DNA from: Nitrospinota bacterium
GTDB taxonomy: Bacteria > Nitrospirota > Nitrospiria > Nitrospirales > UBA8639
Length of the DNA: 58,168 nucleotides
Direction: 5' to 3'
Assembly: GCA_022572725.1 (NCBI GenBank)
Contig: JACZVJ010000003.1
Span: forward strand, 1-58,168
A program made the position numbers and the translations under genes. The notes beneath the pieces are model-generated. The model was given only the letters and a program-made list of their open reading frames with translations, made no database searches and had not been told where the DNA came from. Below, piece by piece: positions 7,243 through 26,078 of this stretch; the stretch's first letter is position 1, and every line of letters starts with the position of its first letter.

Positions 7243-8131
7243 GATCCACCTCCTAGGTTGTGACCCAGATTCACCAAAAGTGATCCTTGTTTCCTCGTGG
7301 TTTCAACCATGGTACGCCAGCAGATAAATGACGGCAACAGAATGGAGCAGTCAAAAGGCTGGCCCCCAAAAGGGAAGGAAAACACCCGAGCGGACCTGAT
7401 TCTTTGGAATCCACCTCGGGCTCTGACCGCAAAGCCATGAGAACCCAAAAAGTTCAAAATATTTTACGGGAAAGAGCAAGGCTTAGATATGATCCATTTA
7501 AGACATAAGAGCCATCTCTCCCATGAGAAATGGCCCTTGCCTTTAAACTCCTACACAAGCCTCCGAAAAGATTTGTTTTGTGGCCTCTTGGCCCATGCCT
7601 ATCAGCATTCGGGTATTTTCTAAAAGGCTCGTATTTTTTAGACAACTCGGTTAAAAAGGGGACGCTCACCTTCAGCAACGAAAGATTGTCATTGCTGGCA
7701 GGGGGCTCAGGTGATCGGTGGACTCAGGTCTTCCATACAAGGCCCCCTCTTGTTTCATCCCAGAATACTTCGATGGCCGAGTTCTACCACCTTATCCCTC
7801 AAAAGGCTTCTTGCACAAACCTTTGAAAATCTTAAACTCCCCAGCTTGGGATGTCAAAAAAGCCACCTTTCCTGGAATCAGATCGGGCCTCCCGCCCCCT
7901 TCGAGGGCAACCAGGCCATTGGGGTCAAGCGGGTAGGCCATGAGAAGGAATAGAATGCCGGAATGGAGGATAAAACAATGGGGGGAGCGAGAGAAGGGAA
8001 AAAAGAGGGCCCTGCCCCCCGCAGGCGCTAACCTCCTTCTTGCGAGGACCCATAATGTTTCCCAAGCGAACTGGCTCACCGATACACAACCGGGACCACC
8101 TTCAGGGGGGCAGGACACAAAAGGATACGGT
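7243..8131. other. Gene-poor region of 889 bases
   Basis: Several open frames cross this region on both strands, but their translations are rich in Pro, Ser, Arg and aromatic residues in a way typical of non-coding frames, and none has a ribosome-binding site. It holds the promoter side of the GYD gene at its left and a possible terminator of the CBS gene near 8000. Decayed genes cannot be excluded. Confidence 0.45.
7999..8025 (-). terminator. Possible terminator of the CBS-domain gene
   Basis: On the minus strand, CCTGC-GGGGG-GCAGG forms a 5-pair hairpin, followed after six bases by six T residues. It lies about 107 bases beyond the stop codon of the CBS gene. The gap before the T-tract makes it a weak candidate. 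Confidence 0.3.
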
Positions 8132-9659: not shown

Positions 9660-10976
9660 TTAGGGAGACTGAGTGGGGCCAGAGCCGGGTTCCTCGGTCT
9701 TGGGTGCTTGGAGTTCGAGTTCCTCTCGAAGGGTTGTGAGGGGAATGCGGACCTTCAATGGCTCTCGCATGGTTCGGAACATAATAAAATTTTTCAAGCG
9801 GGCTAGCATCGCGTAGGTCACCAATTGCCCTTGGGGAACCAGCGTCGCCCCGGATTTGGTGCGGATATCGTCGGCTAAAATCATGGGCGGGGCCAGCTCG
9901 TTGAGGCTCACTTCGCCATGCTTGTAACGAAGGGCGGTTGCCGAGACGGCGGACAAAGCTTCCAGAACCGATGGGTCATAGCGACCTGTTCGCGCTTTTA
10001 ATTCCTCAAGGGCTTTCTTTTTGGTGCGGCCTGCGGATTCGAGCGCATCCAGGTCGATCGCCACTTTGAGCAACCGGGAGCCGATTGGGATGGATTCGGG
10101 GTCCCCTTCACCATCAGCCATCCCGAAGCCATCTAACGTATCTTCCTGGTGGGCGATAATTTCAGCCACCTCTTCCATCCTCGGGATTTTTCTGATCATG
10201 TCCGCACCGATTTGGGGGTACTGTCGGTACAGCCTCGCTTCGCGAGGATTGAGCCTTTTACCCTGCGAGACTTTGTGCAACACGTTAGGCGGTAATGCCA
10301 CCCACCCCAGTTGCGACAGCAGCGAGGCGATTTCCAACTTCCAAATGATGGGGAACCTCATCCGCTTGGCCATCGCTGTGACGTAGCGCTTGATCCGGGC
10401 GGACCGGCCGAACGCTTCAGGGTTCATGAGCGAAAGGACCTGGGTCATCGCCTCAATGGATCCGATCAGGGTTTGCTCCAGGAGCTCCTTTTCACTTCGC
10501 ATTCGGCGAAGCACCTCTCGGTCCGCGGCTTCGGCTTTCTGCCGTTGCTCATTGATGGTTTGCTGCAAACGGTACTTTTCCGCCGCGTTTCCAATGGCTC
10601 GCTGGAGCACGGGTGGGGCCAATCTGGCTTTTGGGATATAATCCATGATGCCGGCTTTCATGGCATCAACGGCGGTTTGGGTGTCGCCGTTACCTGTGAG
10701 GAGGATGACCGGTTGATGAAAGCCCATCTCCTGCATGCGTGTAAACACCTCAACTCCTGTTTTTTCTCCTAAGAAGTAGTCGATCAGCACCACATCTGCC
10801 GGATAGCCTTGTAGCGCCTGCAGGCCTTGGGCCGAATCGAGAAAACCCCGAAACTCAGTCTGCCACCCGGGAATTTCCTGGATATACTGACGCAGCAACT
10901 CCAAGTTGTCTGGGTCGTCATCGATTGCCAAAATTTTCAAAAGCGTGTCTGTGGTGCTGTTCAAGTTTGGCCTCAA
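9660..10976 (-). CDS. Response regulator with degenerate HD-GYP domain
   Basis: 438 residues. An N-terminal receiver (about 13-135) has the acidic pair in LAIDDDPDN and phosphoacceptor Asp in VLIDYFLGEKTG. A coiled linker follows, then an HD-GYP-like domain (about 175-345). The usual HDIGK is SQLGW near residue 220, the GHS histidine is Arg (FGRSARI), and HHERxDGSGYP is HQEDTLDGFGM near 272. Most metal ligands are therefore gone and c-di-GMP hydrolysis is unlikely; binding or scaffolding remains possible. The start is a TTG at 10976 without a clear ribosome-binding site, so the true start may lie a few codons inside. It is the last gene of the signalling island. Confidence 0.82.
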   Translation of the reverse strand: MRPNLNSTTDTLLKILAIDDDPDNLELLRQYIQEIPGWQTEFRGFLDSAQGLQALQGYPADVVLIDYFLGEKTGVEVFTRMQEMGFHQPVILLTGNGDTQTAVDAMKAGIMDYIPKARLAPPVLQRAIGNAAEKYRLQQTINEQRQKAEAADREVLRRMRSEKELLEQTLIGSIEAMTQVLSLMNPEAFGRSARIKRYVTAMAKRMRFPIIWKLEIASLLSQLGWVALPPNVLHKVSQGKRLNPREARLYRQYPQIGADMIRKIPRMEEVAEIIAHQEDTLDGFGMADGEGDPESIPIGSRLLKVAIDLDALESAGRTKKKALEELKARTGRYDPSVLEALSAVSATALRYKHGEVSLNELAPPMILADDIRTKSGATLVPQGQLVTYAMLARLKNFIMFRTMREPLKVRIPLTTLREELELQAPKTEEPGSGPTQSP

Positions 10977-11054
10977 ATAATGTTCGGTTCGCCTACACGT
11001 CGCAAAAGTAAGGGTGGGATGGGCATAAAGAAGGGAATGGCGAGGTGCGTCCCC

Positions 11055-11690
11055 TTAGGGCAGAGTTTTTTTATGGCTCTCATGGTCAGCCGATCCATTT
11101 CCGAGGGCCGCTTGAAGTTCAAGGTGGTGGATGGCTTTTTCCTCATCGGCCGCCCGTTCCTCTTGCAGGGCCACGAGTTCGTCGAGTTGCCGTTTGGCCT
11201 GTTGGGCCAGATGCCATCTTTGAGTCAAGGAGTTGGCGAGTTGCCAGACTTCAATGTTGTCAAAGGGTTTTCGAAGGATGAGCAATTTTTCACTATGTTT
11301 CAGCCGCTCAATGATTGTTCTCCATGAGTGGTCGGAGTAGGCGGTACAGATGACAATTTGAATGTCAGGGTCGACCTGCCAGATATGTTCGATCGTTTCG
11401 GCCCCGTCCCACCCCGGCGGCATGCGCATATCCACAAAAGCGACGGCGTAAGGCTGATCACGTTGAAGAGCCTCCCGGACCATGGCAAAGCCTATTTGTC
11501 CCTGGTCGGCACAGTCCACCTCGAACCGTTCTGGGGGTGGGGCTAAGGCATCGTCATCGAGCAGGCTGGCCCGGGCCTCTCGCAGCGACGCATTCCCGTC
11601 CGGCTGGGCAAGGATCTTCCGAAAGTCAGCGTGAATCGCATGGTTGTCGTCGATAACCAATATTCGGCGATTGAGGGAGTGAGTTATCAT
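11055..11690 (-). CDS. Stand-alone response regulator, [10 protein letters not shown] type
   Basis: 211 residues: an enlarged receiver with IDDNHAIHADF at the acidic pocket, an inserted acidic stretch of about 30 residues, and phosphoacceptor Asp in [13 protein letters not shown] near residue 93. Then come [11 protein letters not shown] and the conserved Lys in LRKPFD. A helical tail of about 50 residues (LDELVALQEERAADEEKAIH) may be a dimerisation or docking helix. There is no output domain. Its ATG overlaps the end of the upstream receiver-kinase by 4 bases, so the two are translationally coupled and probably partners. Two other proteins in the island carry the same receiver subtype. Confidence 0.88.
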   Translation of the reverse strand: MITHSLNRRILVIDDNHAIHADFRKILAQPDGNASLREARASLLDDDALAPPPERFEVDCADQGQIGFAMVREALQRDQPYAVAFVDMRMPPGWDGAETIEHIWQVDPDIQIVICTAYSDHSWRTIIERLKHSEKLLILRKPFDNIEVWQLANSLTQRWHLAQQAKRQLDELVALQEERAADEEKAIHHLELQAALGNGSADHESHKKTLP

Positions 11691-12961
11691 GACGTGGTGG
11701 CCTCCACAGGAATCATGGGGAGGTCGAGAGTAAACGTGGCACCGGTTCCCTCGCCATCGCTCCAGGCCCGCAAAGAACCATTCATGACCTTGGCGGCGAG
11801 GGCACTGCCATGAAGTCCGAACCCGTGTCCGTCCTTTTTGGTGGTGAAGCCTTGTGCAAAGATGCGGGTGAGGTTCTCCACCGGGATTCCTACACCGGTG
11901 TCACAAACCTGAAAACGGATATACTTTTGTTGATCCACACAAGGCTGGATTCCCAAGGTGAGTTGGTGCGGTTGGCCCGGCAAGTCTGTCATGGCATGGT
12001 GGGCGTTGCGAATCAGGTTGACGAGGATTTGGAGCACCTGGTGCCTATCAATCATGACCTGTGGGAGTTCTGCGTACGCTCGAACCACCTGAATCCGGTC
12101 TTGGTCCAATGTTGCTTGATTGATAATCAGCGCCTGCTCCATGAGTTCTGCCGGGACCGCGGGCTCTGCATGCGTTCGCGACTTGGCAAAAGTCTGCTGG
12201 GCCTGGATCACTCGCCGGACGTGGTCGAGGTTGGCGTGAAGGCACATCAGTTCATCGAGAGCCCTGGTGTTCTGAATGAGCAGGTTTTCCCCCAACTTGG
12301 CCAAGTAATCGGGAATTTGTCGGCCTTTGTGGTCGTGGGTCAGATACTCCCCAATGTCATCGGCGTGGTGATGAAGCATTTCGGCAATGCTTTTGATGTC
12401 CCCGATGCAGGATTGTTGAATATTGTCGTGGAGTTGATGGCTGATGACACTGACGCTGTTCAATACATTGCCCACGTCGTGGAGGACGTTTGTGGCCACT
12501 TCCGCCTTGCCTAACTGTCTAGCCGTTTCCAGCAATTTTGCGTTCAATTCTTCCCGCTCGGCTTCCACCCGTTTCTGTTCAAGGGCATAGCGGATGGAAC
12601 GCTCCAAAAGAGGGGCATTGATCTGGCCTTTCACCAGATAATCGACAGCTCCCATACTCATAGCTTCTTGATCAATTCCACGGTCCCCATAGCCGGTGAG
12701 CAAAATGGTTGGGGCGGGGCAATGGCACAAGCCGGCGTGACGAAGAAGTTCCAGTCCTGTGTGCCCGCCCAGGCTGTAGTCAAAGAGGTTGATGTCGTGT
12801 CGATGTTCCTTCATGCACTCTAGGCCTGATTCGTAAGAAGGGACCCATTCCATGTCATAGGTGGTACCCTCGATTTCTGAAAGAAGATCGCGGGTGACCA
12901 GGTAATCATCCTCATCGTCCTCGACGAGCAAAATGCGGATCCGTTGGGCGTTCGTGTTCAT
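11687..12961 (-). CDS. Receiver-histidine kinase
   Basis: 424 residues. Receiver at about 8-130 (LLVEDDEDDY; phosphoacceptor in NLFDYSLGGHTG). Next is a helical dimerisation segment with the phospho-His in VLHDVGNVLNSVS near residue 160, and a HATPase domain with N box LVNLIRNAHHAM, CDTGVGIP and GHGFGLH. The H box belongs to the LH-(N/D)-VGNVLNS subclass, shared only with the membrane kinase at 18461-21022. The receiver precedes the kinase, so it may accept phosphate from another kinase and gate the transmitter. Its stop overlaps the start of the next response regulator by 4 bases. Confidence 0.88.
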   Translation of the reverse strand: MNTNAQRIRILLVEDDEDDYLVTRDLLSEIEGTTYDMEWVPSYESGLECMKEHRHDINLFDYSLGGHTGLELLRHAGLCHCPAPTILLTGYGDRGIDQEAMSMGAVDYLVKGQINAPLLERSIRYALEQKRVEAEREELNAKLLETARQLGKAEVATNVLHDVGNVLNSVSVISHQLHDNIQQSCIGDIKSIAEMLHHHADDIGEYLTHDHKGRQIPDYLAKLGENLLIQNTRALDELMCLHANLDHVRRVIQAQQTFAKSRTHAEPAVPAELMEQALIINQATLDQDRIQVVRAYAELPQVMIDRHQVLQILVNLIRNAHHAMTDLPGQPHQLTLGIQPCVDQQKYIRFQVCDTGVGIPVENLTRIFAQGFTTKKDGHGFGLHGSALAAKVMNGSLRAWSDGEGTGATFTLDLPMIPVEATTS

Positions 12962-14992: not shown

Positions 14993-15026
14993 AAATGAAA
15001 ACGCCCATCCTTTTTGTGGATGGGCG
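14993..15026 (-). terminator. Intrinsic terminator behind the riboswitch
   Basis: On the minus strand, CGCCCATCC-ACAAAAA-GGATGGGCG forms a perfect 9-pair stem followed by TTTTCATTT. It lies 23 bases beyond the aptamer and about 160 bases before the next gene, the normal place for a riboswitch expression platform. A possible competing pairing with the aptamer 3' end was not resolved. Confidence 0.85.
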
Positions 15027-15049
15027 CATTGAGGTCAGTGCAACGTGTA

Positions 15050-15148
15050 GACCCCGTGGCAACCAGGCGTACCCTGGGAAGGTGAACTTCCCCAATCAGG
15101 TCCCTTGGCTTTGCGTCCCACCCTTTCGGATGGTTTGCCTTTTTCACC
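15050..15148 (-). ncRNA. GEMM / cyclic-di-GMP-I class riboswitch
   Basis: The minus-strand sequence shows the GEMM-I hallmarks in order. GGCAAACC opens the aptamer; CCATCC-GAAA-GGGTGG forms a hairpin with a GNRA tetraloop; GGGACGCAAAGCC is the nearly invariant core; a variable hairpin (TGGGGAAG to CTTCCCA) follows; the close is GTACGCC-TGGTTGCC, whose TTGCC pairs with the opening GGCAA. This is strikingly close to the Vibrio Vc2 aptamer. GEMM-I RNAs bind c-di-GMP, with a subset preferring 3',3'-cGAMP through one base change that I cannot assign safely by eye. With the following terminator it should control the receiver genes from 14834 onwards. Confidence 0.88.
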
Positions 15149-15230
15149 TTGTGGGGGTAGGTATCGGCGTTCTGAATGGAAGACTTTAGGGAGGCCTCCG
15201 GAGAGAAGCGGTCCCTCGTTACGGGTGTTT

Positions 15231-15272
15231 TGTCGTTTGTCGTTTGTCGTTTGTCGTTTGCCGTTCGTCGTT
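15231..15272. repeat. Tandem heptamer repeat
   Basis: Six head-to-tail copies of TGTCGTT on the plus strand: four exact (15231-15258) and two with one change each (TGCCGTT, CGTCGTT). It lies in the untranslated leader upstream of the riboswitch. Copy number may vary by slippage. The role is unknown. Confidence 0.8.
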
Positions 15273-15406: not shown

Positions 15407-15802
15407 TCAGGAAATTGAGACAGGCTGTTGAGATGAGACTCCTATTGCCTCCCGAATAGCGGCCAAAAGTTCATTGAATTCAAATGGTTTCTCAAAAAAC
15501 GCCGCGGCTCCTAGGGCCATCGCCTTTTCTCGAAGCTCCGGCAGCTTGGAGGCCGTCAAGAAAATGAGGGGGGTACTCGTGGTAAAGGTGGAGTCCTGTA
15601 GCCATTCCGCTACGGTCAACCCGTTTCCACCGGGCATGAAGATATCCAACAAGATCACATCCGGCTTATGCTCCTTGGCTTGAGCCAGAGCCATGACCGC
15701 GTCAAAAGCCACGATCACTTCATAACCCTTTGCTTTCAACCGCACCGATAGCACTTTGACAGTCATTTTGTCATCTTCTACCAAGAGAACTTTGTGTTTC
15801 AC
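15407..15802 (-). CDS. Single-domain response regulator
   Basis: 131 residues forming one classical receiver: VLLVEDDKMT, phosphoacceptor in VILLDIFMPGGNG, switch region IFLTASK, Lys in FFEKPFEF. There is no output domain. It starts 23 bases after the receiver-kinase upstream and is probably cotranscribed with it, making that kinase its likely phosphodonor. The subtype differs from the Rcp1-like triplet beyond the riboswitch. Confidence 0.88.
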   Translation of the reverse strand: MKHKVLLVEDDKMTVKVLSVRLKAKGYEVIVAFDAVMALAQAKEHKPDVILLDIFMPGGNGLTVAEWLQDSTFTTSTPLIFLTASKLPELREKAMALGAAAFFEKPFEFNELLAAIREAIGVSSQQPVSIS

Positions 15803-15825
15803 GGTGTGCCCTCCCTAGAGTCTCT

Positions 15826-17058
15826 CTATCCGTCGGTGGCGTTTTCCTTAGGAATCGTAAAGAAAAAAGTGCTCCCCCTTCCCAGTGAGCTTTCCACGGA
15901 AAGGGTTCCTCCATGAAGCCTGACAACCTCCTGGGAAATGGCAAGCCCAAGTCCTAATCCGCCATGAAGTCGTTCGTGGGCTGTCTCAACCTGGTAAAGA
16001 CGGTCGAAGATGCGATGAAGATCGCCTGGGGCAATGCCGCATCCCGTATCTTTCACTGAAACCAAGATGTGTGTGGGATTACCAGAATCCGGACAAGCCT
16101 TGACCGTAATTACCCCTCCCGCAGGGGTGAATTTCATGGCATTGCTCAGGAGATTGTTGAGGACTTGCGCAATTCTGTGTTCATCAATGAACACGTTGGG
16201 GAGGCGAGGCTCAACGGCCGAGCTCAAGGTGATGCCATTCTCCTCGCCAACAGGCTTGAATTCCGTCAGGATGCGAGTGATCAGGGGGCCAAGGGGAACG
16301 GAACGCTGATGAATACTCAACTTTCCGGTTTCGATGCGGGTGGTATCGAGGAGATCATTGACGATATGGGACATTTGATCAAAGCAGTCCTTGACCAGCC
16401 CCAGATACTCGCATTGTTCATCTGAGATGGATCCGGCCAGACCGTCAAGGATGATGCTCGCAAACTCACGCCCGGCCGTTAAGGGTGTTGTCAGCTCATG
16501 GGCGACCGTGTGATAAAACCGCTGGACCTCCTCGTTCTTTCGCACCAAGGTTTGATTGTTTTCTTCCAAGTGGCGGCGATAGTCCTCGAGATTTTTACGG
16601 AGTTTGGCTTTCTCAAGGGCGTTCATGATACCCCGCTCAAGACTTCCCCTGGATGCTAAATTCTTTGGCAAATAGTCCGTTGCCCCAAGCTGCAGGGCAT
16701 GAGTGGCAATGAGTTCTCCCCCACATCCCGTTAGCATCATAATGGGTAGCTCGCAGCCTTTTTCCTGGCCCTCCCGTATGAGATCCAGGCCGGTTCGCGC
16801 ACCAAGGTTGTAATCGAGAAGGACGACATCATGCGTGTTTCTGGTCATGGCTGTCAGTCCGGCCTCATAGGTGGAAACCCAGTCAATTCTAAATTGGGTG
16901 CCGGAAAAATCGGCCAACAATTCCCGCGTCAACAGGTAGTCATCTTCATCATCTTCGACCAGAAGCACCCTGGTGGGGCTGCCACTATGCCTGATTTCAT
17001 CTGGGGTGTGATCCTGGGTGGAAAAAAATTTGGCGGTCTCGTTGTGTTCACTGATCAT
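15826..17058 (-). CDS. Receiver-histidine kinase
   Basis: 410 residues. Receiver at about 28-150 (VLLVEDDEDDYLL; phosphoacceptor in VVLLDYNLGARTG). HisKA has the phospho-His in HTVAHELTTPL near residue 186, and a complete HATPase carries NNLLSNAMKF, DTGCGIAP, GGLGLGLAIS and GRGSTF. It is soluble. The receiver is of the same D-Y-x-LG-xx-TG subtype as in the proteins at 9660 and 11687, but the kinase core is a canonical HisKA. It lies between another receiver-kinase (86 bases upstream) and a single receiver (23 bases downstream). Confidence 0.9.
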   Translation of the reverse strand: MISEHNETAKFFSTQDHTPDEIRHSGSPTRVLLVEDDEDDYLLTRELLADFSGTQFRIDWVSTYEAGLTAMTRNTHDVVLLDYNLGARTGLDLIREGQEKGCELPIMMLTGCGGELIATHALQLGATDYLPKNLASRGSLERGIMNALEKAKLRKNLEDYRRHLEENNQTLVRKNEEVQRFYHTVAHELTTPLTAGREFASIILDGLAGSISDEQCEYLGLVKDCFDQMSHIVNDLLDTTRIETGKLSIHQRSVPLGPLITRILTEFKPVGEENGITLSSAVEPRLPNVFIDEHRIAQVLNNLLSNAMKFTPAGGVITVKACPDSGNPTHILVSVKDTGCGIAPGDLHRIFDRLYQVETAHERLHGGLGLGLAISQEVVRLHGGTLSVESSLGRGSTFFFTIPKENATDG

Positions 17059-21069: not shown

Positions 21070-24000
21070 TTACTCGGGATGTGCTGCAACCTTCCTGCCC
21101 ATTTCCTCTTGAAGTGCCGCTCGTACCCGTTCGATTTCGGCCTCGAGGAGAGGAAGCATGGCCACACTTCCTTCGACTGTCCCCGCCTGACCTTTTTGCT
21201 CCAACTTGGAACAGAGGTGCGCGAGCGGTTTGGCGCCCATGTTTTGACAACTCCCTTTGAAGGCATGAGCCGTCATGGCTACCGCTTCGGGGTCCGCCCT
21301 TTCCACGGCCTCCCGGATTTGAAAAAGATGGGATGGAGCGTCCTGCAAGAACTGCTCGATCACGGAATTGAGAAAGCCTGAGTCCGCTTCTCCATCGAGA
21401 TTCTGAAGCTCAGTCAGAACGTCGCTATCCAGGGCATCCTCATAGGGAGTCGGCCCAGTCAAGGTGGTGGAGGGTTCGTCGCTCATCTCTGCCCCTTCGT
21501 CGGGAGCCACGCATGAGGAATCCTGATCGGCCAGATTTCCTTTATGCTTTTGGTCTTTGCCGGAGGTGTCCCCTGAGGGAGGCACGAGGGACGCTTCACC
21601 ATGTGTCTCTTGCTGCCAGGGAAGCCACCGTTGAAGCACGCCATCCAGCTCCTCGATCCTCACCGGTTTGGGTACATAATCGTCCATGCCGGCTTCCAGG
21701 CATTGCTTCCGGTCCCCTTTCATCGCGTTGGCAGTCATGGCGATAATCGGAATGTGAGAGGGACGTGGTGGGGTGTGAGGATTGGCTGGTTCGTCTGATG
21801 CTTCACGCCTTCTGTCTGACGCTTCACGTTCGCGGATACGCCGGGTCGCTTCAAACCCGTTCATTCCCGGCATCATGCAATCCATCAACACCAGGTCGTA
21901 GGGAATTCGTTCTAGGGCCTCAATGGCTTCGTTCCCGTTCGCGACCACATCGACCCGATACCCCAGCTTGGCCAGCATGCGCACCGCGACTTTTTGATTC
22001 ACGTGGTTGTCTTCGGCCAAGAGAACCTTCATCCGCGCATGAGTGATGGCTTCTGTCACACTATGGCGGGTAATGAGGTAGGATTCAGATTGTGTGGGCG
22101 TTTCCAAGGAATCCGCTGATTTCCCTATGACCAAGCGCAGGGCTTGGAAGAGATGGGCAAATTGGATGGGCTTGGTGAGGTAGGCGTCAAAGCCGGACGA
22201 CTTGGCCATTCTGGCCTCTCCCCTTTGGGCCACATCGGTCAGCAGAACCAACCGGGCCCGACTCAAATTAGGCTCGTTTCTGATGGCGGCACCCAGCTCC
22301 ATGCCATCCATCCCAGGCATTTGCCTATCGATAAGAGCAAGGTCAAAAGGATCACCCTCCTCCGCTGCTTGGCGAAGCGTGTCGAGAGCACCTTGGCCGT
22401 CATTGGCCGTCCGGGATCGCATTCCCCACACTTCTAAATAATGTGTGAGAAGCATCCGGCTGGTTGGATTATCATCGACCACACACACGTGGAGCCCCTT
22501 GAGGTCCTCGCAAGGGTTCACCAGAGCTTGGCGATCGATGGGCTGTTTCTCCAATTGAACCGTGAACCAAAACGTGCTGCCTGTTCCTGGAGTGCTGCTG
22601 ACTCCAATGTGGCCCCCCATCATCTCCGTGAGTTGTTTGCAGATGGCGAGCCCCAACCCTGTTCCCCCATATTCCCGCGAGATTGAACTGTCGGCTTGGG
22701 TAAACGCCTGGAACAGCCGTTCTTGTTGGGTGGATGAAAGCCCGATCCCGGTATCGGTGACATTGAACCGAACCACGACTTCATGCTCCGATTCGTGTTC
22801 CTTTGTGACCTGCACACTGACTTCCCCTTGTGGGGTAAACTTTATGGCATTCCCCACGAGATTGGTCAGGATTTGCCGAACCCGACCGGGATCACCTTTC
22901 ACCGCGGTCGGAACGTCCGCGAAGACCACCGCAATGAGCTCCAGCCCCCTCGTCTGGGCTCTTTCGGCCAGGAGTTCGGAGACCTCCTCAGTCATGACCC
23001 GGAGGTCGAAATCAATTGTTTCCAAATCGAGTCTGCCGGCCTCGATTTTGGAAAAGTCGAGAATGTCGTTAATGAGGGTCAGCAGCATTTCGCCGGAGTG
23101 TTTGACTGTTTCGGCCAAGTCTCGCTGGTCAGCAGTGAGACCGGTATCAAGCAACAATCCGGTCATCCCGATCACGCCGTTCATTGGGGTGCGAATTTCA
23201 TGGCTCATGGAGGCAAGAAACTCGGCTTTTACTTTGGACGCTTCCAGCGCTTGATCACGGGCTTCGGCCAGCTCCAGGTTTGTTTTTTCCAAGTCCTGGG
23301 CGGCTTGCTGCATTTTGGCTTCGTCTTCCCTGCGTTTTGAAATATCCTGGGCCACATACACCATTCCCTGAAACACACCCTGGGTGTCCTGCAAAATAGA
23401 CCCAGAAAATGAAACCGGGATCTGACGACTGTCCTTGGCGTGGTACGTCGTTTCGACTTGATTGACAAAACCTTCTTTCACCAGATCGTTGATGAGTAAA
23501 GCATTGACCACGTCATTGCCAAGAATGACTCCGGGCGGTTGTCCAATCAGCTCGGATTCCTCATAGCCCAGCATTCGTAACGTCGCCCGATTCACGGAGG
23601 CAATCCTCATGTGCGAGTCGACCACCAGAAGAGAATCTCCCATGGATTTCATGATGCAATCCATATAGATCTTTGCTGCCGTGGCTTGGTCGTGGGCGAC
23701 TCGAAGCTCTTCGTGGCTGTGTTCAAGCTTCAGAACCGTCTCCACCAATTGCGCCTCAACCTCTCGGCGGCGGGCGATATCCTCTTGCAAACTCAGGTTG
23801 GCCATCCGTAGCTCGACGGTCCGCCGGTCCACGGTAGCCGTTAAATTCTCAACGTGGAGGTAGTTCCGCCGCGCGCATTCCCATTTCCGGGTTAACGCCG
23901 TGGCCAGTTGCTGAGCCTCTATGGCATCGAACGGCTTCCGAAGGATGAGTAATTGGTCACTTTGGCCCAGTCTGTGAGTAATTTGCTCCCAGTCATGGTC

Positions 24001-24749: not shown

Positions 24750-26078
24750 TTAGATGTGGGTGGCTAGTTCTGGTAGGTCCGTGGGGACAGATGCTGAAGG
24801 TGTATTTTCGGGCCCCTCAAAGGGGAAATACCGAGTCATGCATCGGGGGTTCAGATAGTCCCAAACCTCTTTGGGCAGCTCACTGGGTCGTAAACTTTTT
24901 TTGATGGACAGACGGGTTTCCTGAGCTAAGTCCAGAATGATCGCCTCATTCCTGGGGATATCCGGAGCATAGAGCAACACCAGAGGTCGCAGGCGATCTT
25001 CGAAGTTGATTGTGCTCACGACTCCAATCGATTGGTCGCTCAATTCCACAATAGAGCTGGGGGGGTAAACGCCAAGGCATTTAATGAGTATTACCACCGC
25101 GTCTTCCCAAAATTCCGAGTGGCGTTTGGCGTAGAGCGAGCACATGGCTTCGTAGGGGGTTAAGCTCTTTTGCAAATCCGGGTTATTACACAGTTCGTCA
25201 TAGGCATCGACCACCATGATAATTTTGGAAAATTGGTGGATAGCCTCGCCTTTCAATCCTCGAGGGTACCCCGAACCATCCATGCGTTCATGGTGTTGAT
25301 GGATAGCCTCTAAACTTGGCTCTGGGAAGTTAAACCCTTTTTCTACCATATTTTTTCCCATCTCGGGGTGCTTTCGTATGACGTGAATTGGTTGTCGGGT
25401 CGGCCCTGACTCCTTGTAAGCGGTTTCCCCGATGTCATGGAATAGCGCCCCCAGGCCGAGCAAACGGATGACGTCATCGGAGTATTTCAGCTCTTTTGCC
25501 ACGATCATACTCAGGATAGCGGTATTGAGGGAGTGATAGTAAAATTCATTGCCGTCTTCATTGTCATCCGACAGGTTCATGAGAGCGACCAACGTTCCGT
25601 CACTTCCTATAATGCCAGAGAGTCCCTGGACCATTTCCTCCGCTTTCCGCATGCCTTTGACGAGACCACACGACACATCCCGCATCAGAGCCTTGTTCTC
25701 AGTTAAGACGACTTTATAGGACTGCTCGGCTTCTATAAGTTTATGACGACGGTGCTCGAATGCTTGGACTCTTTCCTCTCTGACCACCACAGCCTCTTCC
25801 GGGGAATCGGCTTGGGTTTGAGGAATTGACGGCGAAGGTTGGTCCTTGATTGCCTTGTCTCCTTCTTCCTCCTGAGTGGTCGAGAGGGTGGGATCGGGGT
25901 CAGACAAGTCAGGGTCATAGAGAATTTTGATGTTCTTTAGGGAACGGAGGATGGCCAGTTCTTTGGCAGATGTGATTTTGAACGTGTTGGCGGGGAAGGG
26001 ATGGCTAAACCACGAGCCCGCCATCTTAACGTAAAGGCCTATCCGCAGGTCTTTGGCATGGGCTGGTACAAAGGCCAT
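24750..26078 (-). CDS. HD-GYP phosphodiesterase with DUF3391-type N-terminus
   Basis: 442 residues. The N-terminal part (VPAHAKDLRIGLYVKMAGSW) is typical of the DUF3391 domain that precedes many HD-GYP domains; a Glu/Pro-rich linker follows. The HD-GYP domain (about 140-370) keeps the key residues: FHDIGE near 213 and HHERMDGSGYPRGL near 263, with VVDAYDELC. These enzymes hydrolyse c-di-GMP to pGpG or GMP. The last residue of HDIGK is Glu, a tolerated change. ATG 26078 has AGGAAAG upstream. It lies just upstream of, and in the same direction as, the island containing the GEMM riboswitch, consistent with local c-di-GMP control. Confidence 0.92.
   Translation of the reverse strand: MAFVPAHAKDLRIGLYVKMAGSWFSHPFPANTFKITSAKELAILRSLKNIKILYDPDLSDPDPTLSTTQEEEGDKAIKDQPSPSIPQTQADSPEEAVVVREERVQAFEHRRHKLIEAEQSYKVVLTENKALMRDVSCGLVKGMRKAEEMVQGLSGIIGSDGTLVALMNLSDDNEDGNEFYYHSLNTAILSMIVAKELKYSDDVIRLLGLGALFHDIGETAYKESGPTRQPIHVIRKHPEMGKNMVEKGFNFPEPSLEAIHQHHERMDGSGYPRGLKGEAIHQFSKIIMVVDAYDELCNNPDLQKSLTPYEAMCSLYAKRHSEFWEDAVVILIKCLGVYPPSSIVELSDQSIGVVSTINFEDRLRPLVLLYAPDIPRNEAIILDLAQETRLSIKKSLRPSELPKEVWDYLNPRCMTRYFPFEGPENTPSASVPTDLPELATHI

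Follow-up and report, generated by a model that had tools for sequence, protein, structure and literature searches.

In C. difficile, the c-di-GMP-I riboswitch Cdi-1-3 is an OFF switch placed before the flgB operon, which includes sigD (PMC6200980, PMC6837544), and the c-di-GMP-II ON switch Cdi-2-2 precedes the two-component genes cmrRST (PMC6837544, PMC12548384, PMC6200980). In Bdellovibrio, the consensus promoter recognized by FliA is TTAAG-N16-CCGATA (PMC3627812). GEMM-Ib switches, which sense cGAMP, share the fold of GEMM-I and occur frequently in Geobacter (PMC8835794, PMC6456294), and the Hypr synthases that generate cGAMP carry Ser in place of the Asp of GGDEF proteins (PMC6456294). Position 20 of the aptamer acts as a selectivity factor among cyclic dinucleotides (PMC9262584). 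Links between c-di-GMP and two-component signalling usually lie at the protein level, being provided by kinases that control cyclases or by effectors that bind c-di-GMP.

The locus described here lies on the minus strand of a 58,168-nucleotide window (the whole stretch of DNA that was analysed) from a Nitrospinota bacterium, and its features are collected in Table 1. With a probability of roughly 0.7, its leader is a transcription-terminating c-di-GMP-I OFF switch that controls an operon starting with Rcp1-like receivers and transcribed from a promoter read by FliA. The aptamer, the terminator, the complementarity, the conserved promoter motif and the conserved gene order can be read directly in the DNA.

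Table 1. Features of the receiver leader and its operon, and the aptamer before the sigma gene elsewhere in the genome (positions are those of the window unless a contig or locus is named)
Feature	Position	Strand	Basis or remark
FliA/sigma-28-like promoter, TAAA-N16-GCCGATAC	15188-15161	minus	ends 11 nt before the aptamer
c-di-GMP-I (GEMM-I) aptamer	15148-15054	minus	RF03167 and RF01051 covariance matches
Presumed Vc2 G20 equivalent, G here (c-di-GMP type)	15139	minus	Vc2 numbering
P2 3' strand GGGUGGGACGC, predicted antiterminator partner of the terminator 5' arm	15113..15123	minus	pairing and MFE
Presumed Vc2 A47 equivalent, A here; G in the RF03167 'GGC' consensus	15112	minus	RF alignments
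Presumed Vc2 C92 equivalent, C in GGUUGCC		minus	Vc2 numbering
Terminator hairpin, 10 pairs	15027-15001	minus	stem, then UUUCAUUUGU
Terminator 5' arm GCGCCCATCC	15018..15027	minus	
Terminator 3' arm, then U-rich tail TTTCATTTGT	15001..15010	minus	10-pair stem
R1, stand-alone Rcp1-like receiver, 159 aa, first gene of the putatively regulated set	14834-14355	minus	PF00072, PDB relatives
R2, stand-alone receiver	14330-13776	minus	PF00072; same order in G012
R3, stand-alone receiver	13782-13234	minus	PF00072; same order in G012 and G016 (R2 split)
Probable continuation: REC-HATPase kinase, REC, REC-HD protein	9660..12961	minus	Pfam; order kept in G012 and G016
GEMM-I aptamer and terminator before a FliA/WhiG sigma gene	G000:C190:25378-25472		L004, L170 near 7380-7475

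A cmscan search of the whole window placed the aptamer at 61.9 bits against RF03167 (gathering threshold 59, E=3.1e-12) and at 60.8 bits against RF01051 (gathering threshold 35), the family that the first-pass annotation had named for checking its claim of a GEMM-I aptamer. The core GGGACGCAAAGCC, the GNRA hairpin (a GAAA tetraloop) and the closing GGTTGCC on which that claim was based are all in place on the minus strand. The fold of the 154-nt leader beats 200 of 200 dinucleotide shuffles (z = -2.88). Across 13 leaders, 97-100% of the P1, P2 and P3 pairs are retained, five aptamer pairs show changes on both sides, and the covariation score of P2, P3 and the terminator was reached by none of 500 shuffles. 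The same annotation had reported a terminator of nine pairs followed by three receiver genes; the terminator is present behind the aptamer with a stem of ten pairs, and R1, R2 and R3 all match PF00072 above its cutoff.

PF00072 is the only domain of R1, a single receiver domain with the Asp/Lys signature (LLDLSMPKK and KP) and no output domain, in keeping with an Rcp1-like protein, and its closest PDB structures (5te9, 4zyl RphyB, 1k68 RcpA and 1i3c Rcp1) are receivers of the Rcp1/RcpA type. A gap of about 270 nt separates R3 from the probable continuation genes, whose co-transcription with R3 is uncertain. In this neighbourhood, the receiver-HD protein (window 9660-10976, minus strand) has HD-GYP motifs that look degenerate. 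An HD-GYP-type protein farther away (window 24750-26078, minus strand) has an HHERxDGSGYP motif that looks intact, making it a possible c-di-GMP phosphodiesterase.

The direction of switching is suggested by the way in which the aptamer and the terminator are connected. They are separated by about 27 nt here (20-31 nt in most leaders) and share no base, and therefore a ligand-bound aptamer and the terminator can coexist. The 5' arm GCGCCCAUCC is complementary to the 3' strand of P2 over 10 of 10 pairs with one bulged A, so that the intrinsic terminator and an antiterminator built on a strand of the aptamer exclude each other. This pairing holds in 96.2% of cells in the 13 leaders, as against 36-62% when slid, and columns 22, 27 and 137 vary in concert (C-G with C, U-A with U), which keeps one and the same base paired in either fold. 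For a transcript not yet extended into the 3' arm, the MFE structure is the antiterminator, at -46.5 kcal/mol compared with -43.7 kcal/mol when P2 is kept, and the ensemble pairing between the 5' arm and P2 is at least 0.78 in nine of the 13 leaders, with shuffled-arm means of 0.04-0.35. Three g4 leaders (G011, G019 and G022) differ in that the partner of the 5' arm is the 5' strand of P1, not P2; the G017 leader shows weak P2 pairing (0.31), and a canonical terminator is absent from the G003 and G015 leaders. Covariation of the antiterminator alone is modest, being reached by 14 of 500 shuffles, and arm swaps between leaders, which are related to each other, gave P=0.065.

Because the antiterminator is the MFE fold before the 3' arm exists, c-di-GMP should, according to this folding model, switch transcription OFF. 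The opposite logic, in which c-di-GMP blocks termination and raises receiver expression, has precedent in the ON switches known to use GEMM-I-type aptamers (pilM), but it is unlikely here: with no overlap between terminator and aptamer the two structures are compatible, and the only alternative fold found draws on the P2 strand, which the ligand would lock away.

Directly upstream of the predicted OFF switch, at a site that the first-pass annotation had passed over, an exact TAAA...GCCGATA match, in the form TAAA-N16-GCCGATA, was found at C77:15162-15188 (minus strand), and no sigma-70-like promoter was found in the leader region. Compared with the forms TAAA-N15-GCCGATAA or, for the lineage, TCAAG-N14-NCCGATA, it agrees at 11 of 12 positions with a spacer of 16. 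In every R1 leader, CCGATA precedes the aptamer by 8-11 nt and is itself preceded, at a distance of 14-17 nt, by a T(A/C/T)AA box. A FliA-like promoter is thus present in 15 of 15 R1 leaders, in none of the eight fliA leaders and in three of the 35 other GEMM leaders, giving a Fisher P of 2.7e-11 for the R1 leaders against the remaining ones (3/43) when kinship is ignored; among random 67-nt windows from these genomes, 0.3% match the motif. Six TTTGTCG copies at window 15229-15272 lie just upstream of the promoter.

We infer that this promoter is read by FliA. The exact motif is not enriched across the genome (six sites, five for the reversed control), so the claim rests on position and conservation. 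Recognition of a similar motif by another sigma factor, which would make the promoter independent of FliA, might account for this lack of enrichment and for the finding that no strict motif lies near the flagellar genes of contig C60. Such a factor is nevertheless decidedly improbable, since the motif fits the published Bdellovibrio consensus and, in 11 of 12 relatives, a similar one, TCAAG-N14 with CGATA, precedes the flagellin match by 157-163 nt. The present assembly, which is 99% complete, yielded no flagellin gene. Elsewhere in the genome, a FliA-like promoter stands directly upstream of a small STAS-like gene of the anti-sigma-factor antagonist type (G000:C198:8860-8886, minus strand; L166). 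In another family of the same taxonomic order, three loci (L047, L048 and L049) have a GEMM-I aptamer before a short flagellar rod/hook-type gene, and the L047 copy bears a FliA-like promoter, being one of the three exceptions outside the R1 leaders.

Searches for GEMM-I and for R1 were run over the same 60 relatives, followed by a search of a 49-genome family and a re-reading of the loci. In the 60 relatives the two sets of coordinates coincide, the aptamer lying directly upstream of R1 on the same strand, and the unit, with R1 as its first gene, occurs in 15 genomes of four genera within that family; the genomes of the family are related, and counts over its leaders or genomes are non-independent samples. 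R1 is followed by R2, R3 and a kinase here and in G012 and G016, by a kinase and a receiver in genus g9, and by a homolog of a MASE3/PAS-type kinase in g4, and the genes of window 15407-17058, upstream of the switch in this genome, have their g9 orthologs downstream of R1. Because downstream and flanking genes vary in this way, the aptamer and R1 are a constant pair amid a reshuffled neighbourhood. Conservation of the unit in 15 species makes real control of the receiver genes by the aptamer likely, as the first-pass annotation had proposed, and the proposal can now be narrowed to c-di-GMP, OFF logic and a FliA-like promoter upstream.

The leader might instead serve mainly to produce a short riboswitch RNA that buffers c-di-GMP, as merRNA would suggest. 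That RNA is an abundant, attack-phase-specific c-di-GMP riboswitch RNA of Bdellovibrio, whose attack-phase promoters are mostly of the FliA type (PMC3627812), and terminated leaders would arise here as well. However, merRNA lacks a conserved reading frame behind it, whereas in all 15 genomes the aptamer is followed by R1 and the antiterminator would let transcription continue, which leaves buffering in place of receiver control a very slight prospect.

Other GEMM-I loci were seen in these genomes. A conserved type precedes a large protein (G000:C129:153-256, L006 and L171; L157; L160) and has CCGATA upstream with no clear -35 box; in G006 and G012, this is followed by genes for a membrane protein and an Rcp1-like receiver. 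A small Flp-pilin-like gene, together with TadE-like genes, is preceded by two aptamers about 470 bases apart (G000:C49:22144-22220 and 22689-22769; L001 and L002). In G003, the aptamer of L159 (near 3284) is followed not by R1 but by genes for a receiver-kinase and a receiver, with a weaker FliA-like site, TAAA...ACCGATC, upstream.

For the receiver leader, the ligand had been left as either c-di-GMP or cGAMP, with the base equivalent to Vc2 G20 put forward as the means of telling them apart. GEMM-Ib, the cGAMP type, is defined by A at position 20. Positions 15139 and 15112 and the C of GGUUGCC, which we take to be the equivalents of G20, A47 and C92 in the Vc2 numbering, all carry the bases of RF01051, and the comparison at position 20 returned the G of the c-di-GMP type. 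In this 99% complete assembly, the canonical Asp is found in each of the five GGDEF proteins and Ser in none, a search for the SMODS domain gave no match, and no cGAMP synthase of the Ser-type (Hypr) GGDEF or SMODS kind was found. Since G stands at position 20, Asp is present in all five GGDEF proteins and no SMODS match was obtained, the expected ligand judged from these sequences should be c-di-GMP, and the cGAMP half of the original proposal is dropped. The identical fold of GEMM-Ib and its frequency in Geobacter (PMC8835794, PMC6456294) lend cGAMP sensing some plausibility, but against the base at position 20 and the absence of a Hypr or SMODS synthase it is very improbable and was rejected. 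That the site is a genuine 'c-di-GMP-I-GGC' variant whose ligand preference is altered is also very improbable and was likewise rejected: RF03167 is the best-scoring Rfam family by about 1 bit and has GACGCGAAG in its consensus, with a CGCGAAG segment (A47 to G, taken as the GGC-defining base from the RF03167 and RF01051 consensus lines), whereas the site has CGCAAAG and shares GACGCAAAG with RF01051, and so has the standard c-di-GMP-I base at A47.

The gene for the sigma factor is itself preceded by an aptamer. A GEMM-I aptamer lies directly upstream of a FliA-type sigma gene in eight genomes (this one and seven relatives), with a terminator between aptamer and fliA in five of five leaders examined. 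The sigma protein encoded here passes both the FliA/WhiG model (214.6 bits, cutoff 189.6) and the FliA model (203.2 bits, cutoff 201), and FlgM, the anti-sigma factor of FliA, is encoded on contig C60 together with FlgK, FlgL and FliW. In this genome no FliA-like motif was seen upstream of the fliA aptamer. In three relatives, TTAA...CCGATA lies about 130-165 nt upstream of a fliA-type aptamer (L213 near 5442, L215 near 5143 and L216 near 5146, all on the minus strand), possibly reflecting autoregulation by FliA.

From these parts we infer the ligand, the direction of switching, the use of FliA and the physiological role of the leader. Transcription would start a few bases ahead of the aptamer, at the promoter read by FliA. 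Without ligand, the 5' arm and the P2 3' strand would form the antiterminator, allowing read-through into the receivers; c-di-GMP would hold P2 in the aptamer fold, leaving the 5' arm free to build the terminator, which would halt transcription. Production of the receivers and adjoining kinases would then require both active FliA and a low level of c-di-GMP. As fliA itself sits behind a GEMM-I aptamer, with a terminator in this genome, c-di-GMP would act twice on receiver output, once in the leader and once, by way of fliA, at the promoter, in a coherent feed-forward loop. Fourteen related species have the same layout of promoter, switch and receiver, so the proteins of the receiver set are probably made in these cells only during swimming at low c-di-GMP. 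Because the receivers lack outputs and stand beside receiver-linked kinases, in motile cells they may serve as phospho-acceptors or adaptors. The broader reading, in which c-di-GMP terminates both fliA and FliA-driven receiver/kinase leaders across the family, and this feed-forward arrangement sets the amount of phospho-acceptor in swimming cells, would have an even chance of being correct.

If this is true, the level of c-di-GMP would be coupled to two-component signalling through the amounts of phospho-acceptor proteins. The link would run via RNA and in reverse, with the messenger deciding on receiver synthesis and the flagellar sigma factor supplying the transcript. The anatomy leads to sharp predictions, namely OFF logic, dependence on FliA and double action on fliA and its target, which are testable in vitro with synthetic DNA despite the uncultured host.

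The components and the general idea are already known from the precedents in C. difficile and Bdellovibrio. As in Geobacter, where GEMM-Ib aptamers share the fold and occur in many copies per genome (PMC8835794, PMC6456294), several aptamers are present, but the different base at position 20 and the Hypr GGDEF synthase of that system are both missing here. The phytochrome receivers Rcp1 and RcpA (1i3c, 1k68) are related to R1 in sequence, with E about 1e-21 to 1e-23, yet no phytochrome was seen among the neighbouring kinases, which are PAS, MASE3 and receiver-linked kinases instead. Bdellovibrio likewise has, beside its FliA promoter consensus, a motile-phase c-di-GMP riboswitch RNA, but merRNA is non-coding, with no conserved downstream gene and no FliA promoter marked for it in Table 2 of that study (PMC3627812). 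The cmrRST genes also have a c-di-GMP riboswitch ahead of two-component genes; there a class II aptamer, an ON switch, DNA-binding response regulators and an invertible switch are involved, whereas the present locus has a class I aptamer, a predicted OFF switch and receivers without an output domain. Given cmrRST and sigD, the statement that the arrangement was not known as described went too far; what holds of it is that, in a literature coverage that is incomplete, no description was found of a FliA-type promoter and a c-di-GMP-I OFF switch before stand-alone Rcp1-type receivers with fliA also switched. Cdi-1-3 and flgB share with this system a c-di-GMP-I aptamer, ligand-induced termination (predicted here), a FliA-family sigma factor and motility genes. 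In C. difficile one riboswitch heads a 23-kb flagellar operon, whereas here a switch of its own precedes fliA, and a separate second one, on a FliA-type promoter, stands before the receivers.
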